From: a virus
DNA: 20,070 nt
Virus record (IMG/VR): IMGVR_UViG_3300007735_000444
Span: 1 to 20,070 of that record
Reading direction: 5' to 3' (one strand)
Shown: in pieces, positions 17,407 to 19,563 of the stretch
Layout of the letters: every line of letters begins with the position of its first letter
How positions within the stretch are numbered: position 1 is the stretch's first letter
Notes under the pieces: model-generated
What the model saw: only the letters and a program-made list of their open reading frames with translations
What the model was told of the DNA's origin: nothing
The model's database searches: none
Position numbers and translations under genes: made by a program

Positions 17407-17880
17407 TTATTCTGCTTCCACTTCGTCAACTTCATATTCTTCATCTTCAATCGTGTCGTAAGTAATATCGTTTGCAATTTGATAACTAATTGCTTCCAAT
17501 ATGGTTGATTTGGCATCTTCCTCATTTTCTGCTTCCACGCCAGTAATTGTGAATTTAATGGTTACATTAGCGGAATAAGCAAATTTGATTTCATCTGCAC
17601 CAATAAGTGTTAATAACTCATTGATAGCATCTGCATCCATTTCAACTGTTTTATTTTTATCTCCGTCTAATTCCTCTTGGAAATATTCACGGGCTTTTTT
17701 ACGCAAATCGGTAGTTTCTGCCATTGCTTTCCAATAAGCGGTTTGATAATAATCAACGCGTTCATCTAAATGTGTTACTACGGCTAAAAGTTTATCCACT
17801 TCTGCCATTAGATTTTCGCCTTGAAGTTTGTCTAGCATTTGTCTGATTGTTTCGCGTGTTGCTTGTGTATCTCTTGCCAT
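17407..17880 (-). CDS. Acidic hypothetical protein led by a hammerhead ribozyme
   Basis: A 157-residue protein. The N-terminal two thirds are helical and probably coiled coil (RETIRQMLDKLQGENLMAEVDKLLAVVTHLDERVDYYQTAYWKAM in parts). A beta-rich segment, FAYSANVTIKFTITGVEAENEEDAKSTILEAI, follows, then a strongly acidic tail (DTIEDEEYEVDEVEAE). I do not recognise the family. The tail recalls DNA mimics or Ocr-like proteins, but composition alone does not show that. It is the first gene downstream of the hammerhead at 17906-17960 and carries the GAAAGGGATA ribosome site at 17885-17894. Confidence 0.65.
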   Translation of the reverse strand: MARDTQATRETIRQMLDKLQGENLMAEVDKLLAVVTHLDERVDYYQTAYWKAMAETTDLRKKAREYFQEELDGDKNKTVEMDADAINELLTLIGADEIKFAYSANVTIKFTITGVEAENEEDAKSTILEAISYQIANDITYDTIEDEEYEVDEVEAE

Positions 17881-17905
17881 TTTGTATCCCTTTCATAGTC
17901 TGATG

Positions 17906-17960
17906 AGGCTCATCAGTAGTGCCGTCCAGCACTAGACCGCGCCGAAGCGCGGTTTCGCCT
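17906..17960 (-). ncRNA. Type II hammerhead ribozyme B
   Basis: Read on the minus strand from 17960: stem II 3' strand AGGC; core GAA (17956-17954); stem III A15.1-CCGCGC, UUCG loop, GCGCGGU16.1; C17 at 17935; stem I UAGUGC, loop UGGACG, GCACUA; core CUGAUGA (17916-17910); stem II 5' strand GCCU, which pairs with AGGC. Every invariant core base is present and all three stems are Watson-Crick. Cleavage is expected between 17935 and 17934. The stop codon of the upstream gene (17960-17962) overlaps stem II. The processed mRNA would have a 54-base leader before the ATG at 17880, capped by the stem I hairpin. Confidence 0.92.
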
Positions 17961-18154
17961 TACCTTATATTTACATACCGACTTGCAACGCGTAGTAAAT
18001 TTTGGTAGTCGCCACTCATTGAATCCATTGTGTATTGGTCCAATTGTTCTTTAGTTGCGCCAGCCTTTTTCAACGCGTTCCGAACTGAACCCATAATTGC
18101 AAACGCGTTACCATCGTTGCCCGATAATTTAACTGTTACATTGAATAATGCCAC
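17960..18154 (-). CDS. Conserved small phage protein (LSGNDGNAFAIMG type)
   Basis: A 64-residue protein, MALFNVTVKLSGNDGNAFAI then MGSVRNALKKAGATKEQLDQYTMDSMSGDYQNLLRVASRYVNI. The GNDGNAFaixG.v..aLrkaG.....i......SGDYd.LL......V pattern is familiar from small phage proteins of unknown function, often in early regions. It is probably an alpha/beta domain of about 60 residues. The start follows the upstream stop by 2 bases. Its stop codon overlaps stem II of ribozyme B, so translation could influence folding of that ribozyme. Confidence 0.75.
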   Translation of the reverse strand: MALFNVTVKLSGNDGNAFAIMGSVRNALKKAGATKEQLDQYTMDSMSGDYQNLLRVASRYVNIR

Positions 18155-18156
18155 GA

Positions 18157-18585
18157 TTATGCCTCCTCTCTAACTAGACGGTGCATTTGATGTTGCCAAA
18201 TGCTTACATTGTCATCTAATCTATCGCCGAATACGCGGACATATTCAGCAATATCTTTTTGTCGTGATGATACGCAAGATAAAATAACATCAATTGAAAT
18301 ATGAACTCTGCCATTTAGCCAGCCATTGCCAACATTTGTTGGAACTTCAATTGTTCTATATTCATCTTGTTCCCAGCCAACGCCTTCTGAACAAACCAGT
18401 GCATATTTTGGTTCGCCCCAAGGGTCTTGTTTAGCCAATTTAATCAACAACAAATCGTCAATTTTGACGGAACTTGGATTGTCGTATTGAAGTGCTAATA
18501 TCTGATTAGCAATTTTGGCTAATGCCCAGCCATTAATTAGATAACCTGTATAACCTTTGGTGCGTTGTTCCATTCTGTCGTTCAT
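18157..18585 (-). CDS. Hypothetical protein, 142 residues, pseudoknot-led
   Basis: The start at 18585 (MNDRMEQRTKGYTGYLINGW) is chosen because GAAAGGGATA lies at 18591-18600. Starting from an upstream ATG at 18663 would translate through both that site and a structured RNA. The protein continues with ALAKIANQILALQYDNPSSVKIDDLLLIKLAKQDPWGEPKYALVCSEG in parts and a C-terminal helix with QKDIAEYVRVFGDRLDD. I recognise no family. It is the third gene after ribozyme A and the only one in the unit preceded by the pseudoknot at 18622-18666. Confidence 0.65.
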   Translation of the reverse strand: MNDRMEQRTKGYTGYLINGWALAKIANQILALQYDNPSSVKIDDLLLIKLAKQDPWGEPKYALVCSEGVGWEQDEYRTIEVPTNVGNGWLNGRVHISIDVILSCVSSRQKDIAEYVRVFGDRLDDNVSIWQHQMHRLVREEA

Positions 18586-18621
18586 TTGCTTATCCCTTTC
18601 GTGTTTGGTTTGTTTGCTAAC

Positions 18622-18666
18622 TGCACGGTATAAAACAAATGCCGACCCCGTGCAAGTCGGCAATTG
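18622..18666 (-). ncRNA. H-type RNA pseudoknot in the leader of the 18585 gene
   Basis: In minus-strand RNA, stem 1 is UGCCGAC (18662-18656) with GUCGGCA (18646-18640), extended past a U-U mismatch by CAA/UUG. Its 9-base loop contains UGCACGG (18654-18648), which pairs perfectly with CCGUGCA (18628-18622) downstream. Loop lengths (1 base crossing the 7-bp stem 2, about 12 bases crossing stem 1) suit a classical pseudoknot. It ends 22 bases before the ribosome site. Function is unknown: it could be a translational regulator, riboswitch or ribozyme. Confidence 0.6.
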
Positions 18667-18683
18667 CTATTGCTATTGCTATA

Positions 18684-18866
18684 TTAAATTTGTGTTCCAC
18701 TTTTAACTCTCCAGATTTCCATATCAAATCTGGGATTGCTAACTGAAAACGCTCCAGCCAACATATTAGATACTGCATCTAATACATCGCTTGAATCTGG
18801 ATATTGTTCTCTTGCTATTGTAATGATTGCCGCAATTACTTCATAGTCTTTTTTTGTTGTAGCCAT
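18684..18866 (-). CDS. Hypothetical protein, 60 residues
   Basis: The ATG at 18866 (MATTKKDYEVIAAIITIARE) is chosen because it lies 2 bases after the upstream stop and has AGAGGGA about 12 bases upstream. An earlier in-frame ATG at 18908 would overlap the upstream gene. The protein continues SSDVLDAVSNMLAGAFSVSNPRFDMEIWRV, with one long helix and then a short beta part. No family is recognised. An AGCAAT hexamer repeated three times (18663-18680) follows its stop, just before the pseudoknot. Confidence 0.6.
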   Translation of the reverse strand: MATTKKDYEVIAAIITIAREQYPDSSDVLDAVSNMLAGAFSVSNPRFDMEIWRVKSGTQI

Positions 18867-18868
18867 TG

Positions 18869-19066
18869 TTATGCCATCCCTCTTAGTTGTTGTTGAAATG
18901 TTGCCCAAGTATTTTCCATTGTTTCTTGTGTATTAATTTCCTGCTTATTTAGTTTTACAAATGTATCAAAACATACATCACAAAAAATAGTTGCTTCTGT
19001 ATTTTCTGTGTCATATGGGAATTGATATTTGATTGTTCCTGTGTTACCGCAGTTTGCGCATTCCAT
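18869..19066 (-). CDS. 65-residue zinc-ribbon protein led by a hammerhead ribozyme
   Basis: A 65-residue protein. C3-x2-C6 (MECANCGNTG) and C29-x2-C32 (FCDVCFDTF) make a zinc ribbon across the first 35 residues. The rest is a Gln/Thr-rich helix ending QQQLRGMA. It is the first gene of the early operon and begins 58 bases after the predicted cleavage site of ribozyme A. GAAAGGGATA (19072-19081) is its ribosome site. No specific family is recognised; nucleic-acid binding is the usual role of such ribbons. Confidence 0.72.
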   Translation of the reverse strand: MECANCGNTGTIKYQFPYDTENTEATIFCDVCFDTFVKLNKQEINTQETMENTWATFQQQLRGMA

Positions 19067-19089
19067 TGTGTTATCCCTTTCAATGTTGG

Positions 19090-19162
19090 CTTCCTCATCA
19101 GTAACTGCGTGCCAATAGCAGTTAGACCGCGCTGACTTTTAGTGCCAACGCGGTTTCGGAAA
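19090..19162 (-). ncRNA. Type II hammerhead ribozyme A
   Basis: On the minus strand from 19162: stem II 3' strand UUUCC; GAA (19157-19155); stem III A15.1-CCGCG..., extended to 12 bp with G-U pairs around an ACUAAAA loop, back to CGCGGU16.1; C17 at 19125; stem I UAACUGC, loop UAUUGGCAC, GCAGUUA; core CUGAUGA (19101-19095); stem II 5' strand GGAAG. All invariant core positions match. Stem sequences differ from ribozyme B while pairing is kept. Cleavage is expected between 19125 and 19124, which leaves a 58-base leader before the ATG at 19066. Confidence 0.92.
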
Positions 19163-19292
19163 TTGTTGTCCCTAGTTATTTATGTTGTGCAATTGTGTGA
19201 ATTGCTATCGGTGTGCCAAACCGACCTAAAAGGTAATTCTCCATACCGACTTCCGCTTTATTTGGATTGCGCTGGTTACTCGCTAGTTTCCA

Positions 19293-19315
19293 CCTAAGTC
19301 TGTCACTAACTTAGG
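19293..19315. repeat. 7-bp hairpin with 9-base loop
   Basis: CCTAAGT (19293-19299) and ACTTAGG (19309-19315) are perfect inverted repeats in the leader. Flanking GCGC words (around 19270 and 19317) could close a larger three-way structure that includes a GGAAAC segment on the minus strand. Confidence 0.45.
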
Positions 19316-19432
19316 CGCCTGTTTTGGTCTTATGCCGAGGTGCGTTCCCTTATTTGCGTGTCATAACTCCGTGCAATGTGTTACATCGGCTAATTGCTAA
19401 CCTTGCCGAATACCGTTACTAATGCCTAAATG

Positions 19433-19463
19433 TTATCCGCCGTGCTTGGCAACGGGCGGATAA
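19433..19463. repeat. 9-bp perfect hairpin
   Basis: TTATCCGCC (19433-19441) and GGCGGATAA (19455-19463) pair perfectly, with a small inner TGC/GCA stem in the 13-base loop. There is no U tract on either side. It is a structural element of the leader RNA or a DNA-binding site. Confidence 0.5.
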
Positions 19464-19563
19464 TCTGTGCTGGCTATAACGGACTTGCACTTTGTTACTG
19501 GATACTCTGGACGGTGCCGCCAAAATAACGGATGCGGCTTGCCGTCTGTGCCTTCCATATAAA

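Follow-up and report, generated by a model that had tools for sequence, protein, structure and literature searches.

The window analysed here is an IMG/VR record of 20,070 bases. On its minus strand it carries a leftward operon whose first gene encodes a protein of 65 aa with two CxxC motifs, with genes for RecT, an exonuclease and a DUF932 protein further on. Its leader contains, as had been read from the sequence originally, a type II hammerhead ribozyme (HHR1) directly 5' of a ribosome site. HHR1 ends 28 nt short of the first gene's ATG (19066), and the SD-like AAAGGG between them is at 19080-19075. A second hammerhead, HHR2, absent from that reading, sits 1.19 kb beyond HHR1 and precedes the operon's next gene block. 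Upstream of HHR1 lies a non-coding region with a conserved structured RNA. No tRNA or tmRNA was found in a search of the window, and a promoter scan gave matches no more often than chance. A terminase query yielded 80 related contigs. Close isolated phages were not found by nucleotide search, and the terminase relatives among isolates have less than 60% identity, so that no host can be named. The features are as follows.

19230-19554 (-): conserved structured non-coding RNA, core fold (alifold z, covariation); conserved non-coding sequence continues to HHR1
19086-19161 (-): HHR1, type II hammerhead with loop I-tail pseudoknot, class A (RF02276 42.4 bits, covarying helices and pseudoknot)
19161-19158 (-): HHR1 stem II, 5' strand UUCC
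19157-19155 (-): HHR1 GAA
19126-19154 (-): HHR1 stem III, 11 bp, heptaloop ACUAAAA; predicted 3' end of the upstream RNA
19125 (-): HHR1 C17
19102-19124 (-): HHR1 stem I, 7 bp; predicted 5' end of the early mRNA
19095-19101 (-): HHR1 catalytic core CUGAUGA (RF02276 and direct reading)
19094-19091 (-): HHR1 stem II, 3' strand GGAA
18869-19066 (-): first early gene, for a 65-aa protein with two CxxC motifs (hammerhead-gene spacing in relatives 26-35 nt)
17935-19124 (-): predicted processed mRNA of 1,190 nt with four small ORFs, between both cuts (from coordinates)
17900-17962 (-): HHR2, type II hammerhead, class B (RF02276 33.9 bits, relatives, folds)
17407-17880 (-): gene behind HHR2, 157 aa, strongly acidic C-terminus, with AAAGGG at 17893-17888 (no Pfam or PHROG match)

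The hammerhead before the first early gene

The RF02276 match, a motif parser and comparative covariation agree with the original prediction that HHR1 is a complete type II hammerhead in minus-strand RNA. The Rfam scan proposed with that prediction gave a full-model match to RF02276 (Hammerhead_II) at 19161-19084 (-), with 42.4 bits against a gathering score of 37; the E-value is 2.1e-7 when 501 nt are searched and 2.0e-9 for the genome. A default scan of the whole window at the gathering setting listed nothing, probably because the speed filters dropped the match. The parser, an independent one that encodes the known core and stems, detected two complete type II hammerheads, and both lie on the window's minus strand.

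Direct reading, RF02276 and the parser all find the core CUGAUGA, GAA, the A15.1-U16.1 pair and C17, in the type II order in which stems I (7 bp) and III are closed and stem II is open, and they place the predicted cut at 19125|19124, the position given originally. Two details of the helices need correction. Stem III has 11 pairs rather than the 12 claimed, around the heptaloop ACUAAAA. For stem II, read as UUUCC/GGAAG, a stem of 4 bp (UUCC/GGAA) is the best reading because G19090 belongs to a pseudoknot that had been missed. This pseudoknot of 5 bp joins UUGGC in loop I (19115-19111) to GCCAA in the tail (19090-19086), and it covaries among the relatives of HHR1 (UUGGC/GCCAA, UAGGC/GCCUA, UCGC/GCGA and GCC/GGC).

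Stems I and III likewise display compensatory changes across relatives. Such changes in the stems, together with a core that is near-invariant across many phages and with 150 dinucleotide-shuffled windows in which the parser matched nothing, make it very improbable that we are dealing with chance resemblances or with decayed, inactive ribozymes. Inactivity does occur among hammerheads that fit the consensus, as 4 of the 18 tested by Perreault et al. (PMC3088659) were inactive, and HHR2 scores under the Rfam cut-off.

Hammerheads in related phages and the structured RNA upstream of HHR1

Matches to RF02276 are present in 9 of the 50 related contigs searched first, several of which match twice, and the parser adds hammerheads with a longer stem III. 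Among the related contigs of at least 36 kb, 9 of 10 have hammerheads. The set was enlarged by a scan with the neighbouring metallophosphoesterase and by a pattern scan that used no more of the tail than its first base. With these, the related phages in IMG/VR have 87 type II hammerheads that are distinct from one another; as the sequences are related, such counts do not represent independent events. Nearly all of the 87 have an ATG 19-37 nt from the core, and an SD-like sequence is present at 84. Two contigs (L195 and L215) have five type II hammerheads each, in a row, before five different genes.

We divide these elements by loop size and by the match between loop I and tail into a class A, to which HHR1 belongs, and a class B of the HHR2 type, a split of our own in which a few members are loosely sorted. 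Class A hammerheads have the loop I-tail pseudoknot, with sequences that differ between phages and still match each other, and follow a non-coding region of roughly 0.6-1 kb. The position of HHR1 is kept while the gene behind it varies from phage to phage. The stem III heptaloop ACUAAAA (within 19154-19126 in the window) is mostly conserved among class A relatives and is possibly a binding site. An extra U stands between CUGAUGA and stem II in the class A hammerheads of L109, L112, L114, L115, L118, L136-L140 and L143, the last of which has the core CUGAAGA. In L101 and its relatives an opposite-strand ORF of 70-88 aa, located ~0.8-1.07 kb upstream of HHR1, converges on the metallophosphoesterase gene.

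The non-coding region upstream of HHR1 is 67-86% conserved between many relatives, and several lines of evidence indicate that it forms a structured RNA. The alifold z values of two windows are -12.7 and -10 versus column shuffles, and double-sided changes occur in 56 of 110 predicted pairs in an alignment that includes HHR1. Within the domain 19502-19359 pairing holds in 97.2% of the cells, and of the 38 pairs 20 show double-sided changes, compared to 9.6 expected from shuffles; sliding the partner by one to three columns abolishes this signal. A covariance model of this domain gave 27 hits in 90 loci. In all 22 of these 27 that were checked a class A hammerhead follows 144-214 nt downstream of the model match, with the hammerhead of one (L109) identified by direct reading, as the automatic search had halted at a spurious core. 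The L110, L145, L153 and L230 group was left out of model building, yet is among the matched loci. The model has no match in the L104, L108, L132 and L148 groups, although similar blocks are discernible by eye in L104 and L108.

GOLLD and ROOL are large non-coding RNAs of phages and bacteria which, like the RNA upstream of HHR1, are long, covarying and structured. The latter differs from both in that it has no convincing Rfam match except the hammerhead, even with permissive filters. In the window region nothing in Rfam, GOLLD and ROOL included, matches at E values up to 1 apart from the hammerhead, and the corresponding region of L101 gave with permissive filters only a weak snoRNA match (E 1.1), far under the cut-off.

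HHR2 and the core-complementary tail of class B

HHR2 has the core, GAA, C17 and three stems in type II order, and its predicted cut is at 17935|17934. Its RF02276 match at 17960-17900 scores 33.9 bits, below the cut-off of 37, while a relative of the same class in L132 passes with 40.4 bits. A loop I-tail helix of at least 3 bp with a loop of at least 7 was not found in HHR2; instead, its tail UCAUCAG (17906-17900) is complementary to the core CUGAUGA (17916-17910). The hammerhead starts on the TAA of the upstream ORF (17962-17960) and lies 29 nt upstream of the ATG of the gene for the 157-aa protein. Most of the closer relatives likewise have a gene for a similar acidic protein after HHR2. 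Short nucleotide matches to HHR2 were judged to be chance.

Both peculiarities are common in class B. These hammerheads are located between genes, and 55 of the 69 have an upstream ORF whose stop codon is no more than 15 nt from GAA; mostly the codon ends 3-4 nt before GAA, with its last base in or beside stem II. In many of them stem III is rich in GC and is capped by a UUCG, UACG or GNRA-type loop. The tail just 3' of stem II is complementary to the catalytic core CUGANGA. Core-tail helices of at least 6 bp are present in 39 of the 69, compared to 2.4% with shuffled tails. Predicted folds of the full RNA, with energies that leave out tertiary contacts, bury the core in 61 of 69 versus a mean of 14.6 with shuffled tails, and in 3 of 18 class A hammerheads; in the remaining 8 of class B the core is left unburied. 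The difference in energy between the hammerhead fold and the MFE was also considered as evidence for the classes and was dropped, as energy alone does not separate class A and class B. The class B pattern was not found in bacterial and archaeal genomes.

Position 7 is informative on the pairing because it is the sole free base of the core. In an anchored count, since helices found through their pairing would make the count circular, position 7 and the opposite tail base are U-A in 24 cases, C-G in 10 and U-U in 2, with neither C-A nor U-G (0 each); after collapsing similar tails the numbers are 10, 7 and 2 (p 5e-5). Within one phage most hammerheads before different genes carry different tails, each fitting its own core, though exceptions exist.

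Folding of truncated HHR2 RNA predicts the hammerhead fold until the tail emerges and a switch thereafter, and the 3' product of a cut HHR2 is predicted to start with two hairpins. The active fold of HHR2 being predicted as most stable only before tail transcription, cleavage could be regulated, with the anti-core tail of class B or the pseudoknot of class A tying it to the speed of transcription or translation. The stop codon that overlaps or abuts stem II in most of class B fits with this, as stem II and GAA would be hidden under a ribosome that terminates at a flush stop codon, and the cut would come later. The core-tail pairing, however, also suits a purely structural role after the cut, and we consider such regulation possible, if doubtful.

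Proposed processing of the early transcript

The comparison of related phages suggests that the hammerheads cut the structured RNA apart from the early messages and these from one another. Our main reading, to which we give a probability of about 0.6, is that HHR1 is active on a long early transcript and separates the structured RNA from the early mRNA, and that HHR2 cuts the operon again. The leftward early transcript would start in the non-coding region; its first part would be the structured RNA, at least about 325 nt long, and HHR1 would follow. Cleavage at 19125|19124 would leave the structured RNA with a 3' end formed by the stem III hairpin and a C with a 2',3'-cyclic phosphate, and the early mRNA with a 5'-OH end at the first pair of stem I, 58 nt before the AUG. 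HHR2 would make another cut in the operon at 17935|17934, where the fourth ORF has just ended with its stop codon. As the cut of a type II hammerhead falls between two closed hairpins, both new ends would carry a hairpin, which may protect the upstream piece at its 3' end and the downstream piece at its 5' end. We infer that a hairpin at both products makes type II hammerheads suitable for mRNA processing. In class B, HHR2 included, the tail would pair with the core once transcribed. In an uncut molecule this would lock the ribozyme in an inactive state; in a cut one it would release the 5' piece, bar re-ligation and add a second 5' hairpin. Against this explanation count the chance-level promoter scan, the score of HHR2 below the cut-off and its lack of a loop I-tail pseudoknot, the 8 of 69 class B cores that are not predicted to be buried, and the extra U in part of the HHR1 family.

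The placement of HHR1 has a parallel in the HHphage element of haloviruses HF1 and HF2 (PMC3088659; PMC7230728), which also belongs to an early polycistronic transcript and has the first ORF only a few nt behind it. Directly behind HHR1, too, stands the first ORF of the predicted early transcript. In the halovirus a transcript 5' end falls within three nt of the cut (PMC3088659). HHphage differs in its variant core and in its archaeal virus, and the available text of these papers reports for it neither a second hammerhead nor a linked structured RNA. As a leader ribozyme HHR1 is thus an already-known type of element, and the role in mRNA maturation that was originally proposed fits, but is incomplete in that the leader removed would be a conserved structured RNA and the operon has a second hammerhead.

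Another explanation would be simple leader trimming or operon segmentation. The cut would then do no more than set the 5' ends of mRNAs, the conserved RNA upstream would be a control element unrelated to it, and the class B tail would serve only as a protecting 5' hairpin of the product. It draws on the precedent of clustered phage hammerheads and of the halovirus HHphage (PMC3088659) and on the SD and AUG behind nearly every hammerhead. In the loci checked, however, the structured RNA always has HHR1 downstream of it, and the core-tail pairing far exceeds that of shuffled tails and tracks position 7, a pattern that a hairpin in the product only would explain too. On balance we think this account unlikely.

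The two hammerheads would also free a segment of 1,190 nt whose 2',3'-cyclic phosphate and 5'-OH ends a host ligase could join into a circular RNA. The end chemistry is suitable for this and pairs of hammerheads on the same strand recur in many relatives. Against it, the segments vary in size and gene content, the contigs with five hammerheads resemble serial cutting, and Perreault et al. saw no circles in their own examples (PMC3088659). We hold circularization to be highly unlikely.

Perreault et al. (2011; PMC3088659) described type II hammerheads with a pseudoknot and in prophage clusters, and proposed that they cut long phage transcripts into gene-length mRNAs. The elements described here share the permutation, the core and the clustering in phage operons with those bacterial and prophage hammerheads (RF02276), and HHR1 also shares the pseudoknot. 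In contrast to what the available text of that study describes, HHR1 is tied to a conserved structured RNA without an Rfam model, and HHR2-like elements have, in place of the pseudoknot, a tail complementary to the core, and the stop codon upstream of them is flush. In a search of open-licence papers we found no description of the core-complementary tail, the fusion with a stop codon or the linked structured RNA.

The discovery of hammerheads in bacteria and phages in 2011 did not settle what they do there. We tentatively propose, at somewhat less than even odds, that in this phage family hammerheads are the standard scissors of early operons, of which one frees a new large structured RNA and others, located between genes, fused to stop codons and equipped with a core-sequestering tail, can cut only in the brief time before the tail is transcribed. 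The fixed layout of structured RNA, hammerhead, gene block and hammerhead, with up to five hammerheads in a row, makes these phages a tractable system in which to study how ribozymes may process operons. With its complementarity to the core, the tail would offer a natural means of switching off the ribozyme or releasing its product. The structured RNA linked to HHR1 is a candidate for a new RNA family.
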